This document shows positions 34,442 to 54,816 of a stretch of DNA of 64,000 bases, piece by piece (the stretch's first letter is position 1; the number at the start of each line of letters is the position of its first letter). Both the position numbers and the translations under genes were made by a program. Source of the DNA: Devosia faecipullorum (GTDB lineage: Bacteria; Pseudomonadota; Alphaproteobacteria; Rhizobiales; Devosiaceae); the NCBI RefSeq assembly GCF_015158295.1, contig NZ_JACDXV010000004.1, positions 124,001 through 188,000 on the forward strand, given 5' to 3'. The notes below the pieces were generated by a model. The model did not search any database. It worked only from the letters and a program-made list of their open reading frames with translations, and was not told the DNA's origin.

Positions 34442-34627
34442 TCAGGCCTTGCCGATATCGCCCTTCAAGCCCCGCCGCAGGAAGAGGATGGCCAGCGCCT
34501 CCAGCATCAGGCCACCGCCCGAATTGCCTTCCATGGCAGGGAGATCGATCCCCAGCATCTGCGCGATGGCGGCCAGCAGCATCATGGCGGCGACGATATA
34601 GGTCTTGTAGCCCGACAGAATGTCCAT
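34442..34627 (-). CDS. Possible nested holin-like protein from an internal in-frame start
   Basis: Inside the endolysin gene and in the same frame, an ATG at 34627 is preceded by AGGAG with an 8-nt spacer (AGGAGAAACGAAAATG), the best ribosome site seen in this part of the operon. It would give a 61-residue protein with a hydrophobic helix (YIVAAMMLLAAIAQML), a Gly-rich turn and an amphipathic end (EALAILFLRRGLK), the size and layout of a small holin. The sequence shows the site; production of the separate protein is inferred. Confidence 0.5.
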   Translation of the reverse strand: MDILSGYKTYIVAAMMLLAAIAQMLGIDLPAMEGNSGGGLMLEALAILFLRRGLKGDIGKA

Positions 34628-35185
34628 TTTCGTTTCTCCTGCTTGTGATGAGGTGGATTTGGGGGCGGCGGCGAGCGCCACTGCCCTGATCGAAGCGACC
34701 CGGCTGGTCCAGCCGTTCCCGAAAGTGGCGAAGGTTGAAAGCCCTCGCAGAAAGCCCAGCCGCCGGTCGCAGATTGCATTGATCACCGCCCGCGCATCGG
34801 CCTTGGCCGCCGCGCCGATGGTCAGAGGCCCGACCAGCCCGTCCACCACCACGCCCAAAACGGCCTGCAAGGTGCGGATCGCCCTTTCGGGGCCGGAATT
34901 AACGGCATAGTCGAATATTGCCAGATCGATTCCGGGCGGCAGATTTTCCGCCCGGCAGAGGTTCCAATAGCCGGCGCGATAGATCCGCGCCGCTTCCGTC
35001 CGCGTGAGGCTCCGCACCGCGCTCTTGGGCAGGTTCCACCAGGGCGAGACCTCGCGCCAGCGGGCCAGCGTCTTGTGGGTTATGCCCATATTGGTGGCCC
35101 CGCCGGGATCGGCGGGATGATCGGCATAACCCCCTTCGTGCCGCAAGATCTCGGCCAAGCAAAGTTCGAACCGCGTCTCAGCCAT
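34442..35185 (-). CDS. GTA-linked GH108 endolysin fused to a holin-like membrane segment
   Basis: A 247-residue protein. Residues 1-165 are a GH108 muramidase (ZliS type): FELCLAEILRHEGGYADHPADPGGATNMGIT holds the catalytic Glu in HEGGY, quoted here only as its key piece, and the peptidoglycan-binding part FDYAVNSGPERAIRTLQAVL follows. Residues 187-247 are a separate module: MDILSGYKTYIVAAMMLLAA forms a membrane helix, and LMLEALAILFLRRGLK ends it. In other rhizobial genomes I recall such a module as an independent small holin-like protein. The start (ATG 35185) overlaps the end of the megatron gene by 8 bp, tying lysis to the GTA operon. The frame is open to 35206. Confidence 0.85.
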   Translation of the reverse strand: MAETRFELCLAEILRHEGGYADHPADPGGATNMGITHKTLARWREVSPWWNLPKSAVRSLTRTEAARIYRAGYWNLCRAENLPPGIDLAIFDYAVNSGPERAIRTLQAVLGVVVDGLVGPLTIGAAAKADARAVINAICDRRLGFLRGLSTFATFGNGWTSRVASIRAVALAAAPKSTSSQAGETKMDILSGYKTYIVAAMMLLAAIAQMLGIDLPAMEGNSGGGLMLEALAILFLRRGLKGDIGKA

Positions 35186-38100
35186 GACATTCTCCCTTTG
35201 CTTCATGGCCGGGTCCGAGAACCGGGCTCATCTGCGCGATGGTGAAGGTGAAGGCGTCCGCAGGGCCGCCAAAATCGGCGATTTGCTCACCCGGGCCATA
35301 GGTGGCGGAAGCGCTGCCGGTCTCGATCGTCCGTATCGGCGTTGCGCCGTCGAACAGCCGCAGGCGCCAGCGCTCCTGTGCATATTCCAGCGGCGGTTCG
35401 GCGAGACCCCAGCCATCGCCATCGGCGCGGCTGCGGCGCGTCCAGCCGAACAGGATGGCTCCATCCGCCTGAAGCGAAGCGCGCAGATGCACCGGGGCGA
35501 GCGGCAAAGCCGGACTGGCATCGGGCGAGACCATCTTGGCCTGCCCAGAAGCATCATTCGGCCCGGCATGAAAGCGCAGCATGCGGCTTTCGCCGATCCG
35601 GTGTGCATCGATGGGCAGCACCGCCGCGCGTCCATCCAGCACCAGAACCCGCCGCCCGCTGGCGACGGGCCCCATTGCCGCGTCGGTGCCGTCGAGCCCG
35701 CGCAGCAATCCGGTCAATCGGTAGCTTTTAGGAGCAATCAGTTCCGCTCCCGCAAACCCGATCACCTCCCAAAACCCGGCGTCACTCTCCACCGCGATCC
35801 TGTTGCTGCCGGCCAATGCCGATTGATCGGACACATCGGCCAGATGGCCGGAGACCAGTTCGACCACCAGGACATTGCCGCGATCCCACACCGCCAATGG
35901 TCCCGCACCAAGCGGAGCGATGGTTTCGCCCATCACCACCGGCCGGGTCAGATGCACCAGTGCGCTGCCGCTGCTTTCTTCGCTGATCCGCACCGATCCC
36001 GGCCAGGGCTTGGTATAGGCGCCGATCAGCAAGCGGCTCCGTCCCGGATCGTCCGGCACGGGCGGCAGATGCGCGCTTACCAGAACTGGCGTCACCAGCA
36101 GCATTGGCGTTCCCGCCCCGCCTCGCGGGCGATCGACGCCCGTCGCCACCGCGTCCCGTCGCGGCAAGGCCGTGGCGGCGATACGCCGCGTAGCGCCATC
36201 GCGGATTTCGGTGATTTCGAATGGCCCCTCCACCAGTTCGGGAAGGGCGATGCGGTCGCCCGGTTCCAGCTCCACCCGTCCCGGCGGCAATGCCAGTTCC
36301 ACCCGATCCGCCGCCATGACGCGGTGATCGAGCAGCCGCTCGGCGGCCCGCCGCGCCCCGGCGCCATCCAACACGACAGGCAGGGTTTCGGACAGGAACG
36401 GGCCGTCGCCCGGTCGCATGGCAGTGGCATTGGCCGAGAGGTAATCGCGCTCGCGGTCGAAATGGCCGAGAGAAAGCCGCCCCGGCTTTTCGGCTGCATC
36501 GCCGCGCCGGCGCGACAGAACCGGCCCCTCGCCGGCGGCCAGCTCTTCGGTTTGCAGCGCCGTGACCGGCCCCCGCCCCTGCACCAGTGCCACCAGTTCG
36601 CCATTGCGTGCCGTCAACACCTGCCCGGACATGTTCAGCACCGGCTCGATGGCCTGTCGCGCCGTGCCCGGACCGTTGAGCAGCAATCCCGCGATCAATG
36701 GCCCGGCGCTCGCCGCCTCCATCACGCAGCCATGGTCCGTGGCGATGGCTTTGATCAATTCATCGCTGGCCAGCGCCCCGAGCCGACCGGTCAGCCAATG
36801 GCCGTTGCGGTGATTGGGGCCATCGGCCCAGACATCGTCCAGCGCCGGAAAGCTGGGGAAGGGCCGCGCGTCCCAGGTCCAGCAATAGAGCCGATCCGGG
36901 TCCACCATTCCGGGGGGATTGCGCGCCGGATCGCGCCAGTAATTGTGATGCGCCCGCAGGAATTGCCGCTGGATCAATCCATCTGGCGTACCGCTGGAAA
37001 AATAGGGCCGCCCACCCTCGGCGCTCTTGTCGTCGCCGAAAATATTGGGCTGGTTAGCCCCCTTGTCCACCGCGCCGCAGCCCAGTTCGGTCAGCCAGAT
37101 CGGCTTCGATCCCGGCACCCAGGGCGTCGGCGTCGCGTTGCGCACCCCGCCGGGGCGATCATGATGCGGCTGGCTCCAGAAGGCATGCAAATCCTTGTGG
37201 CGCCAGATCCAGGGCTCGCCATGCGCGCCATCGGTGATGGCTTTGCGAAGCTGCGCACGCCGGTCGGCATCGCTGACATAGTACCAGTCGAAGCCCTCGC
37301 CGCCGGCAATATTGGCTTCGAGATAATCCAGCGCATATTCCGATGCCGCCAGGGCCGCATCGTCATGGTTTTCGCCATCGCGCCAGTCGCTGAGCGGCAT
37401 GTAATTGTCGATGCCGATGGCGTCGATATGCGGCGAGGCCCAGAGCGGATCGAGATGAAAGAACTTCTCGCCCCCGGCCTGAAGACCGGAATACTCGCTC
37501 CAATCGGCCGCATAGGTGAGCTTGGTGCCGGGGCCGGTTATGGCCCGCACATCCCCCGCCAACGCCACCAGCGCAGAAACGAAGGGAAAGCTGTTGCCTG
37601 CCCCGCGCACCTGGGTCAGCCCGCGCATTTCCGAACCGATCAGCAGCGCATCGACGCCGCCCGCCGCCTGCGCCAGATTGGCATAATGCAGCACCATGGC
37701 GCGATAGCCCGGCACGAACGCAGCCACCTGCGCCGCGGCGCCCGCGCTGCCATCGGGCGAGCCCGGCTGGCCGGGGGCGGGATGGCAGGTGATGCGCCCG
37801 CGCCAGGGATAAGCTCCCTGCTCCGCCCCGCCATGGGGATCGGCCATTCCATTGCCGGCAGGCACGTCCATCAGCATCAGCGGATAGAGCGTCACCTTGA
37901 GCCCACGCACCTTGAGATCGGCGATCGCCGCCAGCACCGAAGCATCGGACGGCGTGCCGCCATAGGCCGGGCCGCCGCCATGGCTGGATACAACGGGCAC
38001 GCTGCCGCGCCCCAGCCCGGCGACACTCCAGATGGTCCCTTCGATGACCCGTCCCGCACCCTCGACACGCGGCGAGATTGCACAGGAGCCGCAGCGCAAG

Positions 38101-38924
38101 TCATTGCCGAACCAGCTCACCACCAGCGCCACATGCTTGAGATTGGGGCAAAGCGCCACGAGCTCGTCGATGGACCAGGTCCAGTTGCTGACGCCGGCCA
38201 TCAAGTGGGCATTTTCGCTCACTCCCTCGCCCGCGCCGAGCACGCGGACGCGCGGCGTCGGGTCATAGCCAAATTCGGTGGCGCCGGGGATCACCGTAAC
38301 CGCCCTGATCGCCGGTTCCAGCTCGCCGGCCAGCCGGCACACTTCCACCGACAATTGCGGAAGGCGATTGCCGAAGCGGCTGAGCGGCAGGTTCTCGACC
38401 ACGAGATAGCACAGCCCGCGATAGGCCGGGGCATTGCCAACGCCCTGCACCGCCTCGATCAGGCTATCGGGAAGTTGATCCTCGTCGCCAGCATAAAAGC
38501 GCAGATTGAGCCCGCGCGTATCGAGCAATTGCCCGTCGGCCCAGATGCGCCCCATGCGCGCCACCTGTCCTTCGCAGAGCCCGATGGCGAAGCTGGCGAG
38601 GATTTCCTCTTCCTGTTCCGGCGGGGGCGCAAATCCTTTCGAACCCGCCGTTTCGGTGACGTGGCGGAGCAATTCCCGCGCCCAGATGATATTGCCCGAA
38701 AGCCGGCCCCAGCCATAGAGCCGGGGAATGGGCGCGCCTTCGCTCGATCCGCCCAGCCGCACGTCGAACAAGGGAGCTTCGACGCTGCGTTTTTCGCTGA
38801 ACAGCATATTGTCCAGCGCATTGCCCGCCAGCGCCCCCAATGCCCGCCCGATGGTCGCGCCGATTGGCCCGCCGACCAGTCCGCCCGCGAACTGTCCGGC
38901 CACCGAAAGTGCCAGAGTGGCCAT
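35178..38924 (-). CDS. GTA megatron / host-specificity tail-tip protein (RcGTA g15-like)
   Basis: Baseplate multidomain protein at the tail tip of the gene transfer agent, 1248 residues, close to the roughly 1300 of RcGTA g15. An Ala/Gly-rich membrane-active N-terminus (residues 1-45, QFAGGLVGGPIGATIGRALG) is followed by phage-tail hub-like domains. The middle holds the GTA TIM-barrel glycosidase-like domain (about 390-720), with YAADWSEYSG, IDAIGIDNYMPLSDWRDGE and WLTELGCGAVDKG. The rest is the tail-protein and receptor-binding region. The start at ATG 38924, 4 bp after the NlpC/P60 gene, is chosen over an open frame reaching 39116, which would run through that gene. Confidence 0.93.
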   Translation of the reverse strand: MATLALSVAGQFAGGLVGGPIGATIGRALGALAGNALDNMLFSEKRSVEAPLFDVRLGGSSEGAPIPRLYGWGRLSGNIIWARELLRHVTETAGSKGFAPPPEQEEEILASFAIGLCEGQVARMGRIWADGQLLDTRGLNLRFYAGDEDQLPDSLIEAVQGVGNAPAYRGLCYLVVENLPLSRFGNRLPQLSVEVCRLAGELEPAIRAVTVIPGATEFGYDPTPRVRVLGAGEGVSENAHLMAGVSNWTWSIDELVALCPNLKHVALVVSWFGNDLRCGSCAISPRVEGAGRVIEGTIWSVAGLGRGSVPVVSSHGGGPAYGGTPSDASVLAAIADLKVRGLKVTLYPLMLMDVPAGNGMADPHGGAEQGAYPWRGRITCHPAPGQPGSPDGSAGAAAQVAAFVPGYRAMVLHYANLAQAAGGVDALLIGSEMRGLTQVRGAGNSFPFVSALVALAGDVRAITGPGTKLTYAADWSEYSGLQAGGEKFFHLDPLWASPHIDAIGIDNYMPLSDWRDGENHDDAALAASEYALDYLEANIAGGEGFDWYYVSDADRRAQLRKAITDGAHGEPWIWRHKDLHAFWSQPHHDRPGGVRNATPTPWVPGSKPIWLTELGCGAVDKGANQPNIFGDDKSAEGGRPYFSSGTPDGLIQRQFLRAHHNYWRDPARNPPGMVDPDRLYCWTWDARPFPSFPALDDVWADGPNHRNGHWLTGRLGALASDELIKAIATDHGCVMEAASAGPLIAGLLLNGPGTARQAIEPVLNMSGQVLTARNGELVALVQGRGPVTALQTEELAAGEGPVLSRRRGDAAEKPGRLSLGHFDRERDYLSANATAMRPGDGPFLSETLPVVLDGAGARRAAERLLDHRVMAADRVELALPPGRVELEPGDRIALPELVEGPFEITEIRDGATRRIAATALPRRDAVATGVDRPRGGAGTPMLLVTPVLVSAHLPPVPDDPGRSRLLIGAYTKPWPGSVRISEESSGSALVHLTRPVVMGETIAPLGAGPLAVWDRGNVLVVELVSGHLADVSDQSALAGSNRIAVESDAGFWEVIGFAGAELIAPKSYRLTGLLRGLDGTDAAMGPVASGRRVLVLDGRAAVLPIDAHRIGESRMLRFHAGPNDASGQAKMVSPDASPALPLAPVHLRASLQADGAILFGWTRRSRADGDGWGLAEPPLEYAQERWRLRLFDGATPIRTIETGSASATYGPGEQIADFGGPADAFTFTIAQMSPVLGPGHEAKGECHG

Positions 38925-38928
38925 GGAT

Positions 38929-39357
38929 TTATCCTTGTTTGTCGGGGAACCGGAACCGCCCGCTGACCCGTCGGGCCCAGCCGGCGCTGAAATTGGCCTC
39001 GACCACGCCCAGATGTTCCTGCGCGTGGATGAAGCGGTGCGGGCTGACCATGATGCCGCAATGGCGCGCCTCTTCCAGCCCGCCGAGCCGGAACAGCACC
39101 ACCTGCCCCGCCGCAACCGGCCCCGTTTCCGGCAACAAGAAGCTTTGCGCCGCTTCGTTCAGCGCCCCGTCATGGCCGCCATGGCGCCAGTCGGCGCGAT
39201 AGGGCGGCACCCTGACCGGTTCGGCGCCGTAAAGCGCCCGCCACACGCCGCGCAGCAGGCCCAGGCAATCGCAACCGGCGCCCGGCGTCGAGGCCAGGTG
39301 CCGATAGGGCGTGCCCAGCCATTGCCGCGCCGCTTCGACCACGCTGTCGGGGTTCAT
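38929..39357 (-). CDS. GTA NlpC/P60 cell-wall peptidase (RcGTA g14-like)
   Basis: Tail-associated peptidoglycan peptidase of 142 residues. The catalytic cysteine is in AGCDCLGLL (second Cys, near residue 31), with the histidine in ARHCGIMV and a polar third residue after it in HRFIHAQ. The family order Cys-His-polar and its length match the GTA peptidase that helps the tail cross the recipient cell wall. The ATG at 39357 overlaps the DUF2163 stop by 4 bp and is preferred over the long open frame to 39636. Confidence 0.92.
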   Translation of the reverse strand: MNPDSVVEAARQWLGTPYRHLASTPGAGCDCLGLLRGVWRALYGAEPVRVPPYRADWRHGGHDGALNEAAQSFLLPETGPVAAGQVVLFRLGGLEEARHCGIMVSPHRFIHAQEHLGVVEANFSAGWARRVSGRFRFPDKQG

Positions 39358-40244
39358 TTCACCACCGCCCTGCCATCCATGGCGTCGCCGCGCCGTGGAT
39401 GGCGCAATAGATAATCGCTGCCCGGCACATGCGGAAAACCGCGGAAATTGGCGGCATTGGCGAAGCGCGCCTTGCAGGTGGAAAAACGCCGGTCGCAACC
39501 GACGCTCACTTCGAGCACGTCGTCGGCGTCGACCCATTCTCCCACCTGTTCGGCGAAGCCGAGCACGTCGCCCTCCGGCACCCGCCGATGGGTCAGCACG
39601 GCGTCGGCGAGGCCGTCGCGCCGGCCGCTGCCCCAATGCGCCATGCCGAAGGCGAACCAGCCCTCGTCGAACCCGGACAGCCCGCTGACCAGCACCTGAA
39701 ACGGATCGACAATAGCCAATATTGTCGCCGCGCCCCTATGCGCAGGCCGGTCGAGTTTCACCCCGCAGCGCCCGTCCCCGACCTGAGCGTCGCACAATCC
39801 CTGATAGAGCCGGCCGCGCGTCACGTTCAGCGCCTGTTGCGGCGAGCGCAATTCGGCGCGGAAAACCCCGTCCTCGCGGACAATTTCGCCGATAATATCC
39901 ACCCGCAGCAGCAGGCATTGCTCCGGCTCGGCCCAGTTGACCAGCCAGGTTTCCACCCGCGCCCCGTCATAGCGCCCGAGCAGGATGTCATCCTCGCTGA
40001 TTGCGGCGCTGTCGAGAATGCCCAGCACCTCGCCGGTTTCCACCTGTGCGCCCAGCCGCGCCGGCACGTCGCCGCCATCCAGCCCGAAAGCGGGACTGCA
40101 TGCCGTACCCGCCACGTCCAGAACGCGATCATGCTCGGTAAAGCCCAGAACCTGCCCATCGCGCCGCAGCACACGCCAGCAATGGGCGATAGTGGTCTCG
40201 CCCTGCGCCAGATGCGCCGCCAAAGCCTCCGGCACCGCCTTCAT
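39354..40244 (-). CDS. GTA tail hub protein, DUF2163 / BR0599 family (RcGTA g13-like)
   Basis: Baseplate hub component of 296 residues. The N-terminal DUF2163 part (HCWRVLRRDGQVLGFTEHDR) is followed by a C-terminal BR0599-type region with four cysteines in two pairs (GLCDAQVGDGRCGV and VGCDRRFSTCKARF). These could bind a metal or Fe-S cluster, which I recall being reported for the RcGTA hub. The ending FANAANFRGFPHVPGSDYLL is a hallmark of this family. Start and stop both overlap neighbours by 4 bp (ATGA), so g12-g13-g14 are coupled. Confidence 0.92.
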   Translation of the reverse strand: MKAVPEALAAHLAQGETTIAHCWRVLRRDGQVLGFTEHDRVLDVAGTACSPAFGLDGGDVPARLGAQVETGEVLGILDSAAISEDDILLGRYDGARVETWLVNWAEPEQCLLLRVDIIGEIVREDGVFRAELRSPQQALNVTRGRLYQGLCDAQVGDGRCGVKLDRPAHRGAATILAIVDPFQVLVSGLSGFDEGWFAFGMAHWGSGRRDGLADAVLTHRRVPEGDVLGFAEQVGEWVDADDVLEVSVGCDRRFSTCKARFANAANFRGFPHVPGSDYLLRHPRRGDAMDGRAVVK

Positions 40245-40861
40245 GGCAGGATCTCCAGCAGGGGAATAGAGGGGATTTCAGCGCCGTCGAAGCCATTGAG
40301 CTCGACATCGAGCCGGTCAGTGTCGAAGCGCACCGGCACGTCGAACAAAAATCCCGCGCTGACGCTTGCCCCCAGCGCCGGGGCCGCCGAAAAGCCGATC
40401 ATGCCCGTGGTGACATCCACGCTCCAACCGGTCAGCACTTCGCTGCCATTGACGGCAACCCGCACACTGCCGGCAATTGGCTTGGCGATGATCCTCAGAT
40501 AGGGATCGAAGGCCGCGCCATAGCGCTTGGTCAGCTGAAACTGTGTCCTTACACCATCACCAGTGCCAATGGCCTGATCAGTGGGTCCGGGCGCGATTCC
40601 GCCCGAGGAATGGTCCAGCCCGTCACGCCACAAAAAGCCATGCAGCCGGCCGCGCCTTTCCTCGAAAAAGGCCAGCACCGCCTGCATGTCGGCGCGCGAT
40701 TTGACACCATAGCCGGCATTGTAGCGCCGCCGCGACTGCGCCCAGCGCCCATTGCGGCTTTCGCCGCCGCCCGCCAGCGTCACGACATCGGTCCTGCGCT
40801 CCGGCCCGCCCCGCGCCCCCAGCGCAATGTCGAGCGGAAAGCGGATATGATGAAAAGCCAT
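40241..40861 (-). CDS. GTA distal tail protein, DUF2460 (RcGTA g12-like)
   Basis: A 206-residue DUF2460 protein, the distal tail component that joins tube and baseplate. It begins MAFHHIRFPLDIALGARGGP and shows the family pattern RRYNAGYGVKSRADMQAVLA and FFEERRGRLHGFLWRD; the C-terminal half is an all-beta region ending IPSIPLLEILP. The start is set at ATG 40861; the frame stays open to 40993 through a palindromic intergenic element, but MAFHHIRFP is the recognised N-terminus. The stop overlaps the hub gene by 4 bp. Confidence 0.9.
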   Translation of the reverse strand: MAFHHIRFPLDIALGARGGPERRTDVVTLAGGGESRNGRWAQSRRRYNAGYGVKSRADMQAVLAFFEERRGRLHGFLWRDGLDHSSGGIAPGPTDQAIGTGDGVRTQFQLTKRYGAAFDPYLRIIAKPIAGSVRVAVNGSEVLTGWSVDVTTGMIGFSAAPALGASVSAGFLFDVPVRFDTDRLDVELNGFDGAEIPSIPLLEILP

Positions 40862-41017: not shown

Positions 41018-41566
41018 TCAAGCGCTGCGTGTGCCGCGCCGCACCGCCCGGAGCAGCATGGCGCTCACCTCCGCCTCGCTGGCGGCAAAACTGCGGGCAT
41101 CGCTGGCGGTGACGTTGAAGGTCACGTTGACACTGCCGCCAGCGCCGCCCACGCCCAGCCGCCCGTCGGGCCCGCGCTGCAGCGGCATGATGGCTTCCGG
41201 TCCGGCCTCTCCGGCGAGGCCCATGCCGCGCCCGAGCGGAAAATAGGCGGGGCTGGCGATCACCCCGCCCTTGGCGAAAGGCGTCACCCCGCCAAGGGCC
41301 GGATTGGTCGCGGTAAATATGTTCTCGACCAGCCCGCCGACCAGCGAGCCCAAAGGCTTGAACGCGGCCTTGAGCGCAATATCGGCGAAGGAGCGGGCAA
41401 TATCGCCCAATACCGCGCGGAAGCTCTTTCCATCGAGCACCGCGCCGCGAAAGGCCCGGCTGACCGAAGTGGCGACGCCATCGGCCAGATCGCCGATGCG
41501 CCGCAATTCCACCGAGACATCGCTCAATTCACCGCGAAATTCCTCGCCGAACAGATCACTGGCCAT
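41018..41566 (-). CDS. GTA tape measure protein (RcGTA g11-like)
   Basis: Short tape measure protein of 182 residues, similar to the small GTA tape measures (about 220) and far shorter than those of siphophages. This fits a short tail, since tape length sets tail length. It begins ASDLFGEEFRGELSDVSVEL, has a helical middle (FRAVLGDIARSFADIALKAA), the Gly-rich GGVIASPAYFPLGRGMGLAG and EAGPEAIMPLQR, which are the family signature. Its start overlaps the chaperone gene end by 11 bp. The downstream gap carries a palindromic element. Confidence 0.87.
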   Translation of the reverse strand: MASDLFGEEFRGELSDVSVELRRIGDLADGVATSVSRAFRGAVLDGKSFRAVLGDIARSFADIALKAAFKPLGSLVGGLVENIFTATNPALGGVTPFAKGGVIASPAYFPLGRGMGLAGEAGPEAIMPLQRGPDGRLGVGGAGGSVNVTFNVTASDARSFAASEAEVSAMLLRAVRRGTRSA

Positions 41567-41747
41567 CGGGGAAATGCTCCATGAGATTTTCGAGACCGCG
41601 CCGGTCCAGCGGCCCGCTGCGCTCCCCCATCACCGCCCCCCAGGCCGAAGCCAGTTCGCGCGGCGTCATCTTCCAGAACGCCTCGGGCGAGAGGCGCAGC
41701 ACGCCCAGCCCGAAACGCATGGCATCCTTCCAGGGAAAGGGGTTCAT
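41556..41747 (-). CDS. GTA tail assembly chaperone (RcGTA g10.1-like)
   Basis: A 63-residue protein with the compact helical pattern of rcc01693-type tail chaperones: PFPWKDAMRFGLGVLRLSPE, then FWKMTPRELASAW. Such proteins coat the tape measure before tube assembly. ATG 41747 overlaps the stop of the gp10 gene by 4 bp, and its end overlaps the tape measure gene, the normal GTA order. Small, but context makes it convincing. Confidence 0.87.
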   Translation of the reverse strand: MNPFPWKDAMRFGLGVLRLSPEAFWKMTPRELASAWGAVMGERSGPLDRRGLENLMEHFPDGQ

Positions 41748-42058: not shown

Positions 42059-42083
42059 GATTGTCCTCAAGACCCCTCCCCCT

Positions 42084-42186
42084 CCCCAGAGGGGCGAGAG
42101 TGCGCAGGAGCCGATGTTTTAGTTTGAGTGACGAGCCCGTGCCCATCGTCCCCTCGCCCCTCCGGGGAGAGGGCCAGGGTGAGGGG
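42084..42186. repeat. GC-rich palindromic region between tail tube and gp10 genes
   Basis: CCCC AGA GGGG (42084-42094) and an imperfect hairpin CCCTCGCCCC TCC GGGGAGAGGG (42151-42173), followed by GGTGAGGGG. The style matches dispersed repeats found elsewhere in the window (9.4 and 42.7 kb). Confidence 0.5.
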
Positions 42187-42212: not shown

Positions 42213-42626
42213 CTACACCGCCGTGAACGTCACCTCCCCCGCGCTTTCCAGCGCCAGATCAAACGTCACTTCCCCGGCATGATCAGCGGAAAACTCCAGC
42301 GCCACGATCTGGAACGGCCCCTGCACCTCGCCGAAATGTGGCAGGATCAATTGCCAGTTGCAGATGGTGCCGGCGAAGAACAGGCTGCGGATCGTGGCGT
42401 CCGAGGACTGGTCCTTGAACACGCCCGAACCGGCGACCGAGGCGCGTTTCACCCCGCCGCCCGCCAGCAATTCCCGCCAGCGCCCGGCGCTTTCCTGGTC
42501 GGTCGTATCGACGCTGGCCGCATTGAAATTGAGGCTCCGCGTGCGCAGCCCCGCCACCGTCAGAAAACTGCCCGACCCGGTCTGGTCGAGCTTCAAAAGC
42601 ATATCCTTGCCGCTCTGGGCTGCCAT
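42213..42626 (-). CDS. GTA major tail (tube) protein, TP901-1 family (RcGTA g9-like)
   Basis: Tail tube subunit of 137 residues, the building block of the flexible GTA tail. Typical features are AAQSGKDMLLKLDQTGSGSF at the N-terminus, then VAGLRTRSLNFNAASVDTTD with the conserved D-T-T-D, and the end FDLALESAGEVTFTAV. The length agrees with GTA major tail proteins. It lies between two palindrome-bearing gaps, unlike most GTA genes here. Extra transcript stability or separate dosage control for this highly expressed protein is possible, but that is inference. Confidence 0.93.
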   Translation of the reverse strand: MAAQSGKDMLLKLDQTGSGSFLTVAGLRTRSLNFNAASVDTTDQESAGRWRELLAGGGVKRASVAGSGVFKDQSSDATIRSLFFAGTICNWQLILPHFGEVQGPFQIVALEFSADHAGEVTFDLALESAGEVTFTAV

Positions 42627-42653
42627 TCAAATTCTCCTGTTGGGCGTGCGTGA

Positions 42654-42772
42654 GCACCCCTCCCCAGCCCTCCCCGTCAAGGGGAGGGTGCCGCATCCAG
42701 TTCGTCGCACTACCCTGCTCCAAGCACCGGCCAGACACCTCCCCCTTGACGGGGGAGGCTGGGAGGGGGTGC
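42654..42772. repeat. Nested palindromes between tail terminator and tail tube genes
   Basis: Two perfect hairpins, CCCTCCCC / GGGGAGGG (42668-42688) and CCTCCCCC / GGGGGAGG (42738-42758), sit inside a larger imperfect inverted repeat: GCACCCCTCCCCAGCC on the left (from 42654) and GGCTGGGAGGGGGTGC on the right (to 42772). The whole could fold into one long cruciform. No T-run follows. Confidence 0.65.
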
Positions 42773-42792
42773 GCAAAGCGCACGAAGACAAG

Positions 42793-43185
42793 TCACTCAC
42801 TCAAAAACCGCAGCAGGACCGCCGCCCGCGCCTGCCCGGTCGCATTGTCGATCAATGTCTCGGTGCGCAGATGCTCGGCATGGGTCACCACCAGCCCAGA
42901 AGGCGCAGGGTCCAATCCCACCGCCACCACGCGCGCGGCGATGTCCAGCGCCGCCTTGCGGCTGGGCTGGTCGCTCCAGCAATGGAGCAGCACGCGATGC
43001 TCCTGTCCCGGCGTGTCGTCGCCGTCGCGCTGGCGCATGTCATGCCGGTCGATCACCACATAGGGCGCGGGGCGGCTGCGGGGCGGCGCGTCGAATATGC
43101 CGCCTGCCCCGATCAGCGCCGAAAGCGCGCCATCGGCGCCCAGCGCCTCGACCAAGGCCGCCTGCAAAGCTGCAATCGGGTGCAT
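42793..43185 (-). CDS. GTA tail terminator, DUF3168 (RcGTA g8-like)
   Basis: A 130-residue DUF3168 protein that caps the tail tube where it meets the head. HPIAALQAALVEALGADGAL leads into the conserved GGIFDAPPRSRPAPYVVID, with HRVLLHCWSDQPSRKAALDI after it and RAAVLLRFLSE at the end. It follows the stopper gene after 3 bp. Length and order fit RcGTA. Confidence 0.92.
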   Translation of the reverse strand: MHPIAALQAALVEALGADGALSALIGAGGIFDAPPRSRPAPYVVIDRHDMRQRDGDDTPGQEHRVLLHCWSDQPSRKAALDIAARVVAVGLDPAPSGLVVTHAEHLRTETLIDNATGQARAAVLLRFLSE

Positions 43186-43188
43186 CGC

Positions 43189-43530
43189 CTACCCCGTGAC
43201 GCTGGTTTCGCTACAGGCGCAGGCCAGATAGGCCCGCCGCCCGTTGATGTCGGCCGTGCTCACCACGTCGAGATTGCGGCCGCGATAGACGATACGGTCG
43301 CCCGGCGAGATGTCGCTGCGAAAGCGCAGCACCACCGAATGCGAAATCGCCACCGCGCGGCCATCGGCATTATTGCCCTGCCGCCCGGTGAGGCTGCGCA
43401 CCCGCGCCCAGACGCTGCTCATCGGCACATAGACCCGTTCATGCCCGCCCCCGCCATCGCCCAGGCTGTCGCGGCGGCGTAGCTGCACCCTATCGGTCAG
43501 CGTGCCGATTGGTGGAATACGCTCGCTCAC
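43189..43530 (-). CDS. GTA head closure / stopper protein (RcGTA g7-like)
   Basis: A 113-residue phage head closure protein. It shows the family opening IGTLTDRVQLRRRDS, then VWARVRSLTGRQGN and the barrel segment RFRSDISPGDRIVYRGRNLD. It sits between adaptor and tail terminator in the neck. The ATG overlaps the adaptor gene stop by 4 bp. Confidence 0.9.
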   Translation of the reverse strand: MSERIPPIGTLTDRVQLRRRDSLGDGGGGHERVYVPMSSVWARVRSLTGRQGNNADGRAVAISHSVVLRFRSDISPGDRIVYRGRNLDVVSTADINGRRAYLACACSETSVTG

Positions 43531-44093
43531 AGCCGCACCCTCTTATAGCCCGCCAAGGCCCGGTCGAAGCCGGAGGGGACCACGGAGCCCGATCCGGCGA
43601 TCAGCACCGCGTCGCGATGCTCATACCAATGCGCCACCAGCCCCAGCAGCGCCTGCCGGAGATCGGCGGGGACGTTGTCGGGCTCGCTGCCGTACCCGGC
43701 GACATAGTCGATTTCGATGCCGCCCAACTCCCGCAGCAGTGGCATGCCGATGACGGTGCGCGGCACGATCAGCCGGTCCGGTTCGGAGCGGAACTGACCG
43801 AGGCCGATATCGTGGCTGCCGCCATTATCGTCGCTGGCGGCGATGGCTGTCACCGAGATCAGCGGCGCAACCGGCAGCTTCACCACGCCGCTTTCCGGCC
43901 AATGATCGAGCACGATGCGCCAGCTCTGCGCCAGAAGCGCCCTGCCGGTGACGCTTTCCACATGCAGCCTGGCCGCGCCGATCAGCGTCGTGATCAAACC
44001 GTCCTCGGCATTGTCGTCCACCTTGAGAAACGCCTTGGCCTCGGCAAGCGAAACCGGCTCCTCGGCGGGGCCCGCCAGAAGATAGGAGGTCAT
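43527..44093 (-). CDS. GTA head-tail adaptor (gp6-like connector; RcGTA g6-like)
   Basis: A 188-residue helical head-tail connector that binds below the portal. Family signs are EEPVSLAEAKAFLKVDDNAE, LIGAARLHVESVTGRALLAQ and a C-terminal VPADLRQALLGLVAHWYEHR. It is the first gene of the coupled group adaptor-stopper-terminator. A gap with REP-like palindromes separates it from the capsid gene. Confidence 0.92.
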   Translation of the reverse strand: MTSYLLAGPAEEPVSLAEAKAFLKVDDNAEDGLITTLIGAARLHVESVTGRALLAQSWRIVLDHWPESGVVKLPVAPLISVTAIAASDDNGGSHDIGLGQFRSEPDRLIVPRTVIGMPLLRELGGIEIDYVAGYGSEPDNVPADLRQALLGLVAHWYEHRDAVLIAGSGSVVPSGFDRALAGYKRVRL

Positions 44094-44208: not shown

Positions 44209-44228
44209 GACGACGGCGAGGAAATGGC

Positions 44229-45449
44229 TCAGCTGGCGCCGAATTTCAGCAACTTGATCGCGTCATAGTCGGCAATGCCGCCGCCGACGCGCTTGGTGGT
44301 GTAGAACAGCACATAGGGCTTGGAGCTGAACGGGTCGCGCAGTACCGAGACGCCCTGACGGTCGACAATCAGATAGCCGCGCTTGAAATCGCCGAAAGCG
44401 ATGGAGAAGGAATTGGCCGCGATATTGGGCATGTCCTCGGCCTCGACCAGCGGGAAACCCATGAAGCTGGCGCGGCCATCGGCGCTGGCCGCCGGCTGCC
44501 AGAGATAATTGCCGTCGATATCCTTGAGCTTGCGCAGCGCGCCCTGCGTCCTGCGGTTCATCACCCAATTGGCGTTCTGACGGTACCCGGCCTTGAGCGC
44601 ATAGACGAGGTCGATGAGGATGTCGGAGGCATGGCTGGCGGGCAGAGCCGCCGAGGTGCCGGTGGCGAGATAGCCCAGGCTGCCCCAGGCCCAGCTGGTC
44701 TCGGCCACCTTGGTGCCGTTGAGAAAGCCGCTGGGCTTGTTGACGCCATCGCCATTGACAAAGGCCGTGGTTTCCTGCGCCGCGAAGGCCGCATTGACCT
44801 CGTCGGCGATCCACTGGCCCACATCCACCGCCGCATCGTCGAGAAAGGCGGTGGTGGCTGCTGGCATGGCATAGAGTTCGGTCGTGGGATAGCTCAGCTC
44901 GGCCAGTACCTGGCTGCTGGTGGTGGGCCGGGCCGCCGTCTCGCCGACCCAGCCGGTCTGCGGCCCGGTCACCGTGATCGGGCGCTTGTAGACCGCGCCC
45001 GAAACCTGCCGCAGCCCGGCAATGGCACGGATGGGCGAGATATGGGTCATGAGCCTCGTGATCTCGGTCTCGACCTCGGCCGGCACCACATAGCCGCCAT
45101 CGGCGGGCACGCCGATCTGCAGGGTCTTTTCCTCGCCGCGCTTCACATAGGCGGAGAAGGCTTCCTTGTATTCGCTCTCGGCGATCTGCCCCTTGCCCTC
45201 GATGGCGGGGCGGGCGCGTTCGGCCTTGGCGCGGTCCAGCGCCGCCTTCTGGCCGTCCAGCACGGCGTTGAGGCGGTCCAGCTTGCCTTCGAGCAGCCCG
45301 TCGGCCGTGCCGCGCTTTTCAATTTCGCCCAGGCGCTGGTCATTGGTGCGCTTGAATTCCTCGAACGCGGTGGAAAATTCAGCGAAGAGCGCGGCAATAT
45401 CGCTCCCCGCGCCTGCCTTGGTTTCGAGGCCGTCGGTCATCCGATCCAT
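44229..45449 (-). CDS. GTA major capsid protein, HK97 fold (RcGTA g5-like)
   Basis: Capsid subunit of 406 residues. Residues 1-110 form a coiled-coil scaffold segment (FAEFSTAFEEFKRTNDQRLG) that the prohead protease should remove. The HK97-fold body follows with the family signatures GYVVPAEVETEITRL, FVNGDGVNKPSGFLNG and ANWVMNRRTQGALRKLKD, and the end YDAIKLLKFGAS. It lies 12 bp after the protease gene, the standard order. The start is ATG 45449; an ATG three codons later is an alternative. Confidence 0.95.
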   Translation of the reverse strand: MDRMTDGLETKAGAGSDIAALFAEFSTAFEEFKRTNDQRLGEIEKRGTADGLLEGKLDRLNAVLDGQKAALDRAKAERARPAIEGKGQIAESEYKEAFSAYVKRGEEKTLQIGVPADGGYVVPAEVETEITRLMTHISPIRAIAGLRQVSGAVYKRPITVTGPQTGWVGETAARPTTSSQVLAELSYPTTELYAMPAATTAFLDDAAVDVGQWIADEVNAAFAAQETTAFVNGDGVNKPSGFLNGTKVAETSWAWGSLGYLATGTSAALPASHASDILIDLVYALKAGYRQNANWVMNRRTQGALRKLKDIDGNYLWQPAASADGRASFMGFPLVEAEDMPNIAANSFSIAFGDFKRGYLIVDRQGVSVLRDPFSSKPYVLFYTTKRVGGGIADYDAIKLLKFGAS

Positions 45450-45461
45450 GTCGGTATCCTT

Positions 45462-45938
45462 CTATCGGTTGCGGATTTGTCTCGTGGCCGCGGCAATGGC
45501 CGCGCCGGCGGTGAGGGGGGAGGCGATGCGCGCATCCTCCATCATCGGAAAGGTGACGATGGAAATCTCGTAGAGGTCGATTTCACTGAGGCGGCGATGC
45601 CCGGTTCCCGCTTCGCGGCTGGCCTTGACGGTGCGAAAGCCGATGGACAGGCCATCGAGCGCCCGGTTTTCGATCAGCCGCCGCAGTGCCTCGGCGCGCG
45701 GCACGCCGGGCACAAGCCGTCCGGCGACGAACAGGCCATGGCCGTCCTCACCAAGACTTTCCCATATGCCTACCGGCTCCTTGGGGTCGTGCTGAAATAA
45801 CAGCCGAATGCGCCCGCGCCTCTTGGCGAGCGATTTGACGAACGCCCCGGGCAGGACGATGTCGCCGCCGCTATCGAGCCGGTTGAAGACGCTGGCATAG
45901 CCGGCGAACCGGCCCTCCGCGTCGATGGGAATGGCACT
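45462..45938 (-). CDS. GTA HK97-type prohead protease (RcGTA g4-like)
   Basis: Serine protease that matures the capsid; the product has 159 residues, beginning at the ATG at 45939-45941. The catalytic His lies in LLFQHDPKEPVG and the Ser in LDGLSIGFRTVKA, as in the HK97 family U35. The opening DAEGRFAGYASVFNRLDSGG is a standard signature. The start codon overlaps the stop of the unlisted 43-residue gene upstream by 4 bp (ATGA). Confidence 0.93.
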   Translation of the reverse strand, partial: SAIPIDAEGRFAGYASVFNRLDSGGDIVLPGAFVKSLAKRRGRIRLLFQHDPKEPVGIWESLGEDGHGLFVAGRLVPGVPRAEALRRLIENRALDGLSIGFRTVKASREAGTGHRRLSEIDLYEISIVTFPMMEDARIASPLTAGAAIAAATRQIRNR

Positions 45939-46069
45939 CATCGGCGTTTGGCTCCGCCGGTCTTCGGCGGCGTCGGCCCGCGCTGCTTGTCGGCAAGCGT
46001 TCCCGCCAGGTTCCAGGCGAATTGCCGAAACGTCTGCTGCGCGCTCTCCCGGTTCTGCTTGTTTGCCAT
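45938..46069 (-). CDS. 43-residue protein gene inside the GTA head module
   Basis: A short gene missed by ordinary length cut-offs. It begins MANKQNRESAQQTFRQFAWN and ends KTGGAKRR, a basic, soluble peptide with a helical start. AAGGAGG lies inside the last codons of the upstream 62-residue gene, with 8 nt to the ATG at 46069, and the stop overlaps the protease ATG by 4 bp. The strong ribosome site and coupling on both sides support real translation. The function is unknown; a head-assembly accessory role is inferred from position. Confidence 0.7.
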   Translation of the reverse strand: MANKQNRESAQQTFRQFAWNLAGTLADKQRGPTPPKTGGAKRR

Positions 46070-46073
46070 AGGC

Positions 46074-46262
46074 TCAATCCTCCTTGCGGAACAATCGGTT
46101 CAGCGCGGCGATCTCCCGCACGAAATCGTTGAAGTGCTGGTTCGCCCTCGCCATTTCCTTGAGGCTCCACACCAGCAAAGCACTCGCACCGCTGGCCCAG
46201 AGAAACAGCGCCAGATGAGCGAGATCGCCCCGCTCGATAATGGTCGTGGTCAGGTTGTCCAT
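46074..46262 (-). CDS. Small membrane protein in the position of RcGTA g3.5
   Basis: A 62-residue protein with one hydrophobic helix (LAHLALFLWASGASALLVWS) followed by a charged helical tail (MARANQHFNDFVREIAALNR). It lies between portal and prohead protease, where RcGTA carries g3.5, a head-formation gene. Sequence kinship to g3.5 is not certain; position is the main argument. A single membrane helix is odd for a particle protein and may indicate assembly at the inner membrane. Confidence 0.72.
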   Translation of the reverse strand: MDNLTTTIIERGDLAHLALFLWASGASALLVWSLKEMARANQHFNDFVREIAALNRLFRKED

Positions 46263-46313
46263 GCCGGTGCTCCTTGCCGTCGGCTGACGATGCTTTGCCC
46301 CCAGACGAAGGCG

Positions 46314-47468
46314 CTAAAGCCCCACCATTGCCCGCTTTTCCTCGTCGCAGAGGAAACCGGCATTGCCCACCCGCTCCCAGAGTGCGGCGCGGTCCTCCGC
46401 CAGGGCCTCGACCTTGTCGAAGTCCGGCACGATCTCAGCCCCTTCGAAGGCTGGTCCCAGCCAGAGGCTCAGTTCCTGGGCCACCCGCACCACCAGCGGC
46501 ACCAGCGTCTGCCGCCACAGGATCCGATTGGCTTCGGCGAGATTGGCATAGGTATTGTCGCCGGGAATGCCGAGCAGCATGGGGGGCACGCCGAAGGCCA
46601 GCGCAATGTCGCGCGCCGCCGCATGGCGGGATTCGATGAAGTCCATGTCGCGCGGGCTCATGGCCAGCGCCTTCCAGTCGAGCCCGCCATCGAGCACCAT
46701 GGGCCGGCCGGCATTGCCGGAGCCGGAAAACTGCTCTTCCAGCTCCGCCTTGAGCCGGCTGAACTGGTCTTCGGTGAGGCTCCCATTGCCTGCCGAATAA
46801 ACCAGTGCTCCGCTGGGCCGAGCCGCATTGTCGAGCAAGGCCTTGTTCCATTGGGCGCTGGCATTGTGAATATCGAGACTGGTCTGGGCGGCCTCCAGCG
46901 GCGCCATGCCGTAATGATCGTCCAGCGGATGGAACAGGGCCATATGCAGGACGGATGGAATGGGCAGCGCCTCCTGGCTCAGCCGCACCGCCTTGCCCCC
47001 GGCCTTGTAGTCATAGGCTAGTGGCCAGCCATCGCGCCCGGCGACCACGCTCATGCGGTCGGGCCGCAGCACGAACAAAGTGCGCACCGCGCCATCGACG
47101 ATGCCGGCCTGCACATAGGCATTGCCGGAGGTTTGCAGATAGGCATAGACCGCTTCCAGCAATTCCGGTCCCGATTGCCGTCCATTGGGCTGGGCCAGCA
47201 ATTGCGCCAGCGGATGACTGCTCGCCGCCTTGCCATCCACCAGCACATTGAGCGGCACCCTGTTCGCCGTTTCCGCGATCAGCCGCACACAGCGATAGAC
47301 GACCGGATTGCGCATGAAACCCTGATTGACCAGGCTGGCATAGCCCCGCCCGCTCCATTGCGCCGGCCCGAGCTGGCTGAGGGTCAGCATGGTCTGCCCG
47401 GCAAAGCTCTTGGTTTCGCCGGGCGTGTTCGTCCGCCCGCCAAGCAGACGGTTCATCCAATTGGGCAT
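46314..47468 (-). CDS. GTA portal protein, HK97 family (RcGTA g3-like)
   Basis: Dodecameric portal through which DNA is packaged, 384 residues. It opens MPNWMNRLLGG and shows the family marks RNPVVYRCVRLIAETANRVP, YLQTSGNAYVQAG and the stem-region IESRHAAARDIALAFGVPP, then LLGIPGDNTYANLAEANRI. The ATG at 47468 is taken as the start; the frame remains open to 47852, overlapping the terminase gene, but that part is low-complexity shadow. A 13-bp hairpin sits just upstream. Confidence 0.94.
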   Translation of the reverse strand: MPNWMNRLLGGRTNTPGETKSFAGQTMLTLSQLGPAQWSGRGYASLVNQGFMRNPVVYRCVRLIAETANRVPLNVLVDGKAASSHPLAQLLAQPNGRQSGPELLEAVYAYLQTSGNAYVQAGIVDGAVRTLFVLRPDRMSVVAGRDGWPLAYDYKAGGKAVRLSQEALPIPSVLHMALFHPLDDHYGMAPLEAAQTSLDIHNASAQWNKALLDNAARPSGALVYSAGNGSLTEDQFSRLKAELEEQFSGSGNAGRPMVLDGGLDWKALAMSPRDMDFIESRHAAARDIALAFGVPPMLLGIPGDNTYANLAEANRILWRQTLVPLVVRVAQELSLWLGPAFEGAEIVPDFDKVEALAEDRAALWERVGNAGFLCDEEKRAMVGL

Positions 47469-47496
47469 GTGTTCCTGTCCTCGTTCCGGCTCGGTT

Positions 47497-47527
47497 CGCC
47501 ACCCTCGCGCTCGACGCGAGGGTGGCG
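47497..47527 (-). repeat. 13-bp perfect hairpin between terminase and portal genes
   Basis: Arms of 13 bp, CGCCACCCTCGCG / CGCGAGGGTGGCG (47497-47509 and 47515-47527), with loop CTCGA. It begins 29 bp before the portal ATG, just downstream of the large terminase stop. The loop CTCGA also occurs in the 7.3-kb hairpin. No T-run follows on the transcribed strand, so it is either a weak terminator, an RNA-stability hairpin or a repeat. Confidence 0.75.
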
Positions 47528-47539
47528 AAGGGTGGATAT

Positions 47540-48796
47540 TCAGAGCCCCCTCACCCTCGGCCGCATCTCGTTCAGCACCAGCTCGGTCAGCGCCCAGACC
47601 AGCGCATCCACCCGGTCGGGTGAATGGCCGTCGGCCTTGCCGTCCGGCCCGAAGGCGCAGAGTTCGTCTTCCAGTGCCGTCAATCCGGGCGCATGGCGCA
47701 CCAATCCGCGTGCATATAGCGCCGCAGCCGGTTCGGCGCGCACCCATTTGCCCCGATTGGCGCGGACGCTGCGCACCGGCACCGAGGCATCCACCTGCGC
47801 CAGCACCTGGCGCACCAGATCGCCGCCCTGATTGACCTCCACCAATATGCAATCGGCCTCATGCGCCCGATAGGCCGCCACCGCCCGCCGGGCCCAGACA
47901 TGAGGGGCAATGCCCTGCAGCGTTGCGTCCTCGAGCACGACGACGCCCTCGCCCTGCCGTCCTGCCACCACGATGCCGCAGGCATCGGAGCGCGCCGTTC
48001 CGGTCACGGGCGGGTCCACCGCCACGACGATGCGCCCGTCCGGTCCGCCCTCGGCGGGGCGAAACATGGCCCGCTGCCAGAGCGCATCGATCCGGTCTTC
48101 GATCAATTCGCCATCCAGTTCCTGCCGGCCCAGCAAGGTGCCCTGATAGCGCGCCACCACCGCATCGAAGAAGTTCGGCGCCAGATTGCGATAATTGTCC
48201 TGCGTCGCCATTCTGACGACGCGCGTATGCCGGTCCTCGACCAGCCGTTTTATCAGGCGCGTCGGGCGCGGCGTCGTGGTCGCCAATTGCCGCGGATGTT
48301 CGCCGAGCCGCAGCCCGAATTGCAGCATGTCCCACGCCTCCTCGGCATGGGGCCATTTGCCGACCTCGTCGCACCAGGCGGCGGCGAATTGCGGGCCGCG
48401 AAAGCGTTCGGGATCCGAGGCGGTCAGGATGCTGGCTTCCACCCCATTGGGCCAGACCAGCCGGTTCTTGCCCTTGAGGACGGGCCGCTCATGGTCGGGA
48501 TGGACGGCGATCAATCCGCTTTCGCCCCGCACCATGATCTCGACCGCCTCGCTCATGGTTTCGCCCACCAGCGCAATCGGGGAAATGCGCCGCCGCGCCA
48601 GCCGGCGGACCCATTCGGCCCCTGCCCTGGTCTTGCCCGAGCCGCGCCCGCCCATCAACAGCCAGGTGGTCCAGTCGCCCGGTGGCGGCTTCTGCTGCCG
48701 CCGCGCCCATTTGGGCCAGCAATAGAAGGTACGCATCACCTGCTCATCGCCCATCGCCGCCACGGCGGCGATGGGGCTAGCGGGCAGATTGCTCAA
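47540..48796 (-). CDS. GTA large terminase subunit (RcGTA g2-like)
   Basis: DNA-packaging motor ATPase and nuclease, 418 residues. The ATPase shows Walker A GGRGSGKTRAG (about residue 50) and an acidic Walker B-type WCDEVGKW. The RNase H-like nuclease has the acidic residues in VVAVDPPVTG, ILVEVNQGGDLV and DRVDALVWAL. In GTAs this motor packages host DNA by the headful and shows no pac-site preference. The long start is a TTG at 48796 that overlaps the small terminase gene by 20 bp; GTG or ATG codons at 48763 and 48754 are alternatives, none with a clear ribosome site. Confidence 0.94.
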   Translation of the reverse strand: MSNLPASPIAAVAAMGDEQVMRTFYCWPKWARRQQKPPPGDWTTWLLMGGRGSGKTRAGAEWVRRLARRRISPIALVGETMSEAVEIMVRGESGLIAVHPDHERPVLKGKNRLVWPNGVEASILTASDPERFRGPQFAAAWCDEVGKWPHAEEAWDMLQFGLRLGEHPRQLATTTPRPTRLIKRLVEDRHTRVVRMATQDNYRNLAPNFFDAVVARYQGTLLGRQELDGELIEDRIDALWQRAMFRPAEGGPDGRIVVAVDPPVTGTARSDACGIVVAGRQGEGVVVLEDATLQGIAPHVWARRAVAAYRAHEADCILVEVNQGGDLVRQVLAQVDASVPVRSVRANRGKWVRAEPAAALYARGLVRHAPGLTALEDELCAFGPDGKADGHSPDRVDALVWALTELVLNEMRPRVRGL

Positions 48797-49256
48797 GGCG
48801 CTTGACCAGCTTGGCGCGCAGATCGGTCATGTCCTTGCGCGTCGGCGGCTCCACATTGCGTTCGGTCGCGCCCAGTTCGATCAGCTTGTCCATGGTCTTG
48901 ACCTGATCGGCCAGCATTTTCGCTCTTCTGTCGATGGGCATGTCCGTAGCGTTCTCCAATTCCCTGATCTGGCCGTCCAGCACGCGCAGCATGCGCGCCA
49001 CCAGGTGCATCCTGCTCGGCGGATGCGCCCTCAGGCTCAGCCAGTCCTCTTTTTCGCGCCGGTAGCGCAATTGCGACAAGGTGATGCCGTGGCGTCGGCA
49101 GATCATTTCGGGGACGAACATCCGGCCCTCATATTCGCCCCGGATGGTCGCCCAGTCGGGCGGCTGCTTGCGGCCTGCCCTCCCCGCTCCGTCCATTCGA
49201 TCCATCTCCCGCAAATTTGCCGGGCTTGCCCGCCGCCGACCCAATTTGTCGACCAT
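48777..49256 (-). CDS. GTA small terminase-like protein (RcGTA g1-like)
   Basis: A 159-residue protein at the head of the cluster. A DNA-binding helix-turn-helix is likely in PEMICRRHGITLSQLRYRRE, followed by a long helical oligomerisation part (MHLVARMLRVLDGQIRELEN, DQVKTMDKLIELGATE) and a basic end. This layout is that of small terminases. In RcGTA the small subunit has lost sequence-specific recognition; whether that holds here cannot be seen. Start 49256 is the outermost ATG; Met18 and Met21 are alternatives. The operon promoter should lie in 49257-49382, where nothing clear was recognised. Confidence 0.8.
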   Translation of the reverse strand: MVDKLGRRRASPANLREMDRMDGAGRAGRKQPPDWATIRGEYEGRMFVPEMICRRHGITLSQLRYRREKEDWLSLRAHPPSRMHLVARMLRVLDGQIRELENATDMPIDRRAKMLADQVKTMDKLIELGATERNVEPPTRKDMTDLRAKLVKRLEQSAR

Positions 49257-54813: not shown

Positions 54814-54816
54814 TCC

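Follow-up and report, generated by a model that had tools for sequence, protein, structure and literature searches.

In a 64,000-nucleotide stretch of the Devosia faecipullorum genome (hereafter the window; located on contig C4, genome size 3.40 Mb), positions 34442–49256 hold what is likely a complete, vertically inherited gene transfer agent (GTA) of the Rhodobacter capsulatus type (RcGTA), in which the last gene of the operon, lys, would serve lysis through two products translated from one frame and timed by translation. We propose that the full-length product is a GH108 (glycoside hydrolase family 108) muramidase that two C-terminal helices anchor to the membrane on its inner side, and that a second ribosome start would give the 61-residue membrane module alone, acting as a holin. 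Translation of the operon would reach lys via the overlapping stop of g15. At a critical level the holin module would open the membrane, and the tethered muramidase would then cut the wall. Unlike in Rhodobacter, where lysis has a promoter of its own, translation would determine when lysis occurs. In relatives, internal deletions have removed structural genes repeatedly, and most of them leave g15 and lys in frame. This hints that the expression of lys may be of value even when no particles are made.

The GTA itself is of a known type; the two-in-one lysis gene and its persistence are the new aspect. How GTAs persist despite the lysis of their producers is an open question, and modelling found the cost of lysis to exceed its benefit (PMC6209664; also PMC9836097). 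A costly lysis gene that is often left after the particle genes are gone, together with a recurring identical deletion, makes the persistence question testable. Moreover, a nested start offers a simple model for delaying lysis until particles are ready when the lysis gene and the structural genes form one operon. In R. capsulatus, CtrA is believed to govern this delay (PMC6363796).

Two probable genes in one reading frame

The lys gene (34442–35185, minus strand) encodes 247 aa that comprise a GH108 domain (residues 11–98), PG_binding_3 (101–162), an unconserved linker and a C-terminal two-helix module. The muramidase domain matches Glyco_hydro_108 with an E-value of 1.7e-28, in addition to the PG_binding_3 match. 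The AlphaFold model has a mean predicted local distance difference test (pLDDT) score of 81.7 and places the C-terminal helices at residues 189–210 and 223–237. Nested in the same frame and strand, a putative holin-like module of 61 codons plus stop (34442–34627) has its own candidate start, ATG at 34625–34627. The sequence GGAGAA, resembling an internal ribosome-binding site, can be read in the window's lys (L000) at 34634–34639.

We compared 101 loci, namely 100 relatives plus the window. The first residue of the module is a methionine, with ATG as its codon at 91, GTG at 4 and TTG at 3 loci (98/101); at the other three a start codon lies at most 2 codons away from the module start. The sequence GGAG is found 5–16 bases upstream of the module start at 77 of the 101 loci, compared with 11 of 827 other in-frame ATG, GTG or TTG codons of the same genes. 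This enrichment was assessed by a Fisher test, in which P is only a guide, as the loci are related and not independent. GGAG lies in frame 1 in 53 loci, in frame 0 in 23 and in frame 2 in a single locus, the two main frames encoding GE or WR/RR. Because it falls in different reading frames, the DNA rather than the peptide is conserved at this position.

Other arrangements of the same two parts occur. Five loci of family f42 carry an unlike membrane module fused likewise, with an internal start that is ATG in four of them and GTG in the fifth. In two other families, four loci (L153, L161, L163 and L165) encode the membrane protein as a separate open reading frame (ORF) overlapping the GH108 stop. 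In a further genus (labelled g5, as distinct from gene g5), all six loci read (L136–L141) have the module alone behind g15, with no GH108 match, and the genomes G089 and G092 of this genus have the full lys. Among 467 lys-matching phage records, none covers 80% of lys.

Taken together, lys is probably two nested genes, a membrane-tethered endolysin and an internally started holin-like protein. We infer that both products are made, with the topology described above, and that the module acts as a holin. Several points weigh against this interpretation. The C-terminal helices are modelled with only moderate confidence (pLDDT of about 62–78). The module has no Pfam holin match, its best hits, obtained with the module minus its first three residues, being sub-threshold ones to CorC_HlyC and Alginate_lyase. 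The genus g5 loci show that GTA clusters occur without GH108. Finally, the nested start and the two-product nature of lys are read from sequence.

Collapsed clusters in relatives

We fetched 100 regions around near-full-length lys matches. Among the 79 regions spanning 19 kb or more, at least 9 of 11 core genes are intact in 62, and deletion has removed at least 5 in 15; lys is intact in all 79 by construction, which is not evidence of its retention. With eight further collapsed cases (G010, G017, G057, G075, G029, G027, G077 and G122), the total comes to 23 collapsed clusters. Not counted were G011 and G061 (several frameshifted genes but no gene loss), G081 (pseudogenes), G050 (upstream partner of the junction not identified) and G055, G007 and G065 (contig ends). 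The full lys frame is kept in 19 of the 23 collapsed clusters and the membrane module with its start codon in 22, G122 being the one that lost it. GH108 carries a frameshift in G010 and is lost in G027 and G077, and all three keep the module with its start.

Among 136 Devosiaceae genomes, lys matches (E 1e-10) occur in 124 and matches to the capsid gene g5 (E 1e-20) in 106, both counts including prophage relatives. The module is found in 121 of these genomes, more than gene g5; three of the genomes with a module and no g5 match (G084, G096 and G104) have it at loci outside those read. As a separate observation, the 2.0-Mb genome G081 (L144), of the same genus as the window, retains the genes from g6 to lys, interrupted by stops and frame breaks, in contrast to the clean deletions of the other loci.

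Many of the deletions join an upstream gene to g15 in frame, such that translation would still run to the overlapping lys start. Counting each junction type once and leaving out G121, G126, G027, G077 and G122, in which the deletions end elsewhere, 9 distinct junction types precede an intact lys, and 7 of them preserve the frame (P = 0.008, with one in three expected). These are two types joining TerL, the large terminase, to g15, two g4–g15 types, and one each of g5–g15, g6–g15 and g5–lys; the junctions of G041 and G051 are out of frame. This excess is the main hint that lys expression may be selected. The ratio of nonsynonymous to synonymous substitution rates (dN/dS) of lys is 0.08–0.30 between collapsed and full relatives and 0.07–0.16 in full pairs. 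For g15C the respective values are 0.14–0.38 and 0.17–0.23. The pairs of collapsed and full relatives include time before the collapse, so these values are not decisive.

The alternative that survives best, to which we give slightly less than an even chance, is that the collapses are young losses and that the rest of each cluster is intact by inertia, with no selection for lys. A fibre-like gene with DUF2793 and Peptidase_S74 lies on another, unlinked contig of the host (L178:805–1827), and the DUF2793 fibre family is still present in 19 of the 23 collapsed genomes, which favours young collapses. The TerL–g15 fusions described below also fit this alternative, as all nine C610 rows and both C81 loci have open fusion frames, their dN/dS overlaps that of full pairs and their g15C shows no consistent rate change. 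The in-frame excess runs counter to young losses, as do the three loci that lost or broke GH108 yet keep the module with its start. A weaker counterpoint comes from G048 and G051, which keep lys in the absence of a DUF2793 match. Such a match is also missing from the collapsed G122 and G126 (the latter an 84% complete assembly), and, which is what makes the point weak, from full-cluster genomes such as G037, G080, G116 and G117.

Selection on lys in the absence of particles has further observations against it. The g5–lys case (G076) has an earlier stop in its g5 part, and without it the in-frame count falls to 6 of 8 (P = 0.02); moreover, the in-frame test was conceived after the junctions had been seen. 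Gene g1, at the opposite end of the cluster, is also kept in most collapsed loci, and part of the retention pattern is positional, as internal deletions alone would give. Seven near-complete genomes (G030, G054, G064, G085, G087, G088 and G091) have no g5 match, no module and no full lys. Because these genomes lack the capsid gene, the module and the full lys alike, lys is dispensable; because the regions were found through lys, the contrast was made with genomes lacking everything. We regard selection on lys without particles as having about even odds at best.

A recurrent TerL–g15 fusion

Nine of the 136 genomes (G010, G014, G017, G028, G048, G057, G058, G118 and G119) have TerL residues 1–146 fused in frame to g15 residues 610–1248, with the TerL part ending directly after the WCDE motif. 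G022 and G074 show a second type, in which the same TerL residue is joined to g15 residue 81. In the order-wide set, scores of fusion strength (E below 1e-22) were obtained in 3 of 21 Devosiaceae and in none of 376 other genomes, among the matches listed (sorted by E-value). The first type occurs in Devosia as well as in the genus to which Pelagibacterium belongs.

On a tree of g15 residues 610–1248, the eight usable fusion rows call for six changes, and well-supported branches force every one of them. In the lys tree the number is seven, of which five are forced; G065 is still counted as a fusion there and is not in the g15 tree. Judged by tree, the same fusion represents at least six separate events. 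The codons at the junctions match those of the respective clade. Over the first 100 bases to each side of the junction, G028 and G022 are 84–95% identical to a full sister, and because the flanks stay close to this sister up to the junction, these two fusions appear to have formed in place.

Two explanations of the recurrence were tried. A homology-driven hot spot was rejected as the sole cause of the TerL–g15 deletion: the longest exact junction run is 3–9 bp in 21 full clusters, and in an 18-bp window, at least 13,000 in-frame g2–g15 position pairs are equally similar in each of 12 genomes. The spread of one old fusion allele is unsupported for G028 and G022 by the identity of their flanks, and by the distances of the central genes; an old allele may have spread to lineages that have no close full sister, and G118 was compared on the right flank only. 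A sequence-tolerant nuclease acting at conserved W..E codons, selection on the fusion protein, or an old polymorphism combined with recombination are possible origins. The recurrent identical fusion is the strangest part of the case.

One could go further and suppose that the Devosiaceae GTA is repeatedly dismantled to the upstream operon end, a fusion of the TerL ATPase half with the rear of g15, and the two-in-one lys. The fusion protein, or the expression that it secures, would then be selected for regulated lysis, and perhaps for interference with related phages or GTAs, without particles. We consider this doubtful, if conceivable.

Position of the lysis gene across the order

The initial annotation had described lysis as wired into the structural operon. 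As anatomy this holds: the lys start codon (35183–35185) and the g15 stop (35178–35180) show the 8-bp overlap that had been noted, and such an overlap recurs in 65 of the 66 loci from this genus. The arrangement is not peculiar to this host, since GH108 lies behind g15 in other families too. Across the order Hyphomicrobiales, lys matches were found in 126 of 397 genomes, and in 105 of 376 outside Devosiaceae. We read 22 non-Devosiaceae loci from the top of the list of these 105 genomes (G171 and G210 were skipped). In 16 of them, from six family groups, GH108 lies behind g15 of a GTA cluster at a distance of up to 5.8 kb. In the remaining six no g15 turned up within the stretch read, G147 being cut by a contig end.

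The closest named matches of lys are from Devosia and Pelagibacterium. Some genera, Pelagibacterium among them, have an ORF of about 310–450 codons between g15 and lys, and the one examined (L125) is a DUF2793 protein. No description of a lysis gene at the end of a GTA cluster was found in the excerpts of open-licence PMC literature. A pattern scan for a separate lys promoter gave 3 promoter-like sites in 16 kb, where shuffled sequence gave 2.3, a difference too small to inform. GTA_holin_3TM (PF11351) has no match in the genome, nor in any control genome, and this null is uninformative.

An unlikely alternative is that the muramidase is a non-lytic wall remodeller with a host function, which would explain why it outlasts the GTA. 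Among solved folds, Brucella SagA ranks closest, with Salmonella Sen1395 and TtsA lower on the list; we take these to be secretion-associated GH108 enzymes. The retention of the lys frame in 19 of 23 collapsed loci would fit a host role. Its position behind g15 across Devosiaceae and in the 16 loci of other families speaks for lysis instead, as does the coupled membrane module, which is typical of lysis cassettes. Furthermore, the full lys is missing in the seven near-complete genomes that have neither capsid gene nor module.

Comparison with known lysis systems

The cluster shares with RcGTA the g1–g15 order, the capsid, tube and g15 proteins as closest solved proteins, and genes for a gafA-like regulator. 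Unlike here, where one gene ends the operon, RcGTA has its holin and endolysin genes outside the cluster (PMC6209664), in agreement with the earlier remark that the Rhodobacter lysis genes are located elsewhere. The RcGTA lysis genes also have their own GafA-bound promoter and depend on CtrA (PMC6363796), and gafA is split in two here. The GTA of Caulobacter crescentus (CcGTA) resembles the present system in its RcGTA-type cluster, in GafYZ being separate proteins and in the GC-rich repeats of its operon (PMC11150451). It differs in that its authors found no holin–endolysin homologues and named LypABC as lysis factors (PMC13236601).

Two phages offer precedents for nested lysis products. The endolysin of phage phi2638A has a second in-frame start, from which a short C-terminal isoform that takes part in lysis is made (PMC12203907), and in mycobacteriophage Ms6 a second lysis product is fully embedded in frame in lysA (PMC3111421). 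However, the short form of phi2638A consists of an enzyme and a wall-binding part, whereas here it would be a membrane module, and both Ms6 products are endolysins, whereas the embedded product here would be holin-like.

It is improbable, in our estimation, that lys makes a single product, a tail-anchored endolysin, with the internal methionine a feature of the protein and GGAG a by-product of codons. The frame is indeed continuous through GH108 and the module at the loci with full lys, and the GH108 part matches single-domain solved enzymes. However, the identity of the start codon is kept while linker residues vary, and GGAG occurs in two main frames and is rare at the other in-frame start-like codons. 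The separate membrane ORFs of other families and the module-only loci likewise favour two nested genes.

A probable, vertically inherited gene transfer agent

The data support an RcGTA-like GTA rather than a prophage. RcGTA proteins are the best solved-structure matches of g5, g9 and g15, the three proteins compared in this way. A Pfam scan of 23 flanking proteins (19146–34015 and 49383–63441, about 15 kb on each side; genes called by a rough script) was negative for integrases, phage repressors and replication proteins; 3 of the 23 matched no Pfam family. The flanking proteins have host functions, including cytochrome c maturation, two-component systems, a serine protease, a penicillin-binding protein and similar. 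The initial annotation had taken the missing flanking integrase, repressor and replication genes to argue against a prophage, and this argument is upheld by the scan, by the RcGTA best matches, by a vertical signal in Devosiaceae and by a split gafA-like pair nearby. Every gene is of phage type, as a defective prophage would also have, and yet that origin is highly improbable given the flank scan, the vertical signal, the RcGTA best matches, the single g5 match in the genome and the downstream gene that relatives share.

The vertical signal comes from pairwise distances at 49 loci. Those of g2 (C-terminal part), g3–g6, g9, g12, g13, g15, lys and the downstream host gene intercorrelate with Spearman coefficients of 0.78–0.95. 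These distances indicate that the cluster is inherited vertically with its host, the N-terminal part of g2 and g1 being exceptions. The g2 N-terminal part correlates weakly with the rest of the cluster (0.53–0.71), steps in identity occur near g2 residue 205 in the pairs G036–G013, G046–G045 and G046–G021, and g1 shows high dN in several pairs. The packaging cassette (47540–49256 in the window, and its counterparts in relatives) seems to have been exchanged.

Beyond the window end, about 16.5 kb from g1, mucR and sufE enclose a Bac_DnaA_C-like gene and a DUF6456 gene (L180:5771–7189, G000:C4), with one further gene separating the DUF6456 gene from sufE. A split gafA in an arrangement like this pair near mucR/sufE has been reported for Hyphomicrobiales (PMC9638019). 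From synteny and domain type, the pair appears to be a split, gafA-like activator. Gene order, closeness to RcGTA, the lack of an integrase module, vertical inheritance and a gafA-type activator, that is, every testable feature of RcGTA-like membership, were thus all found. The host may be able to form particles.

Gene content of the cluster

All eighteen consecutive minus-strand genes that had been listed, plus the GH108 gene lys, are present in what we take to be the RcGTA order. Every frame is open, in keeping with the earlier reading of a cluster without frameshift. A search with GTA-specific profiles, proposed in the initial annotation, matched TIGR02217 'Rcc01695 family', TIGR02218, TIGR02216 'rcc01693 family' and 'GTA-gp10'. 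Profiles also assigned the expected functions elsewhere, among them Peptidase_S78, Phage_capsid, Phage_portal, Terminase_6N/6C, NLPC_P60, GTA_TIM, Rcc01698_C and, in g8, Tail_completion_gp17.

All gene coordinates below are on the minus strand. The packaging end comprises g1 (48777–49256), small terminase-like by PHROG 1206 (terminase small subunit, E 2e-4), and the large terminase g2 (47540–48796), which matches Terminase_6N and 6C and in which GGRGSGKT and WCDE were taken by eye as Walker A and B. They are followed by the portal gene g3 (46314–47468; Phage_portal, E 1.7e-88) and by g3.5 (46074–46262), encoding a small protein that looks membrane-like by eye, is intact in 67 of 79 relative regions and has no match in Pfam or PHROG. 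The extra 43-codon gene gX (45938–46069) has a match in 54 of 62 near-complete clusters of relatives. The head genes continue with the prohead protease g4 (45462–45941; Peptidase_S78, E 1.5e-31) and the major capsid protein g5 (44229–45449), whose best PDB match is the RcGTA capsid 6tb9 (E 6.5e-90). Next come the head–tail connector g6 (43527–44093; TIGR02215, E 7e-50) and the head completion gene g7 (43189–43530; Phage_HCP).

The tail genes begin with tail completion g8 (42793–43185; E 3.9e-17 to its profile) and the tail tube g9 (42213–42626), whose best PDB match is RcGTA Rcc01691 (E 5e-46). Gene g10 (41744–42058) matches Phage_TAC_11 'GTA-gp10' (E 3.2e-31), and the tail assembly chaperone g10.1 (41571–41747) matches Phage_TAC_6 and the rcc01693 family of TIGR02216. 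A short tape measure, g11 (41018–41566; PHROG tape-measure families), precedes the distal tail gene g12 (40241–40861; TIGR02217) and the baseplate hub g13 (39354–40244), matched by TIGR02218 'phage/gene transfer agent baseplate hub'. The peptidase g14 (38932–39357) matches NLPC_P60 and TIGR02219. The tail tip or megatron gene g15 (35178–38924) carries GTA_TIM, Phage-tail_3 and Rcc01698_C, with RcGTA g15 (6tba, E 9e-256) as its best PDB match.

Three inverted repeats, to which no strand is assigned, lie between genes of the cluster: a hairpin in the g2/g3 gap (47495–47529; 15-nt arms, 100% complementary) and GC-rich repeats in the g8/g9 gap (42651–42775; 40-nt arms, 83% complementary) and the g9/g10 gap (42078–42173; 21-nt arms, 90% complementary). 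In the Caulobacter GTA operon, a GC-rich repeat terminator is read through with GafZ (PMC11150451). By analogy, the GC-rich inverted repeats between the GTA genes may be antitermination points. The g8/g9 repeat has just two short partial copies elsewhere in the genome.

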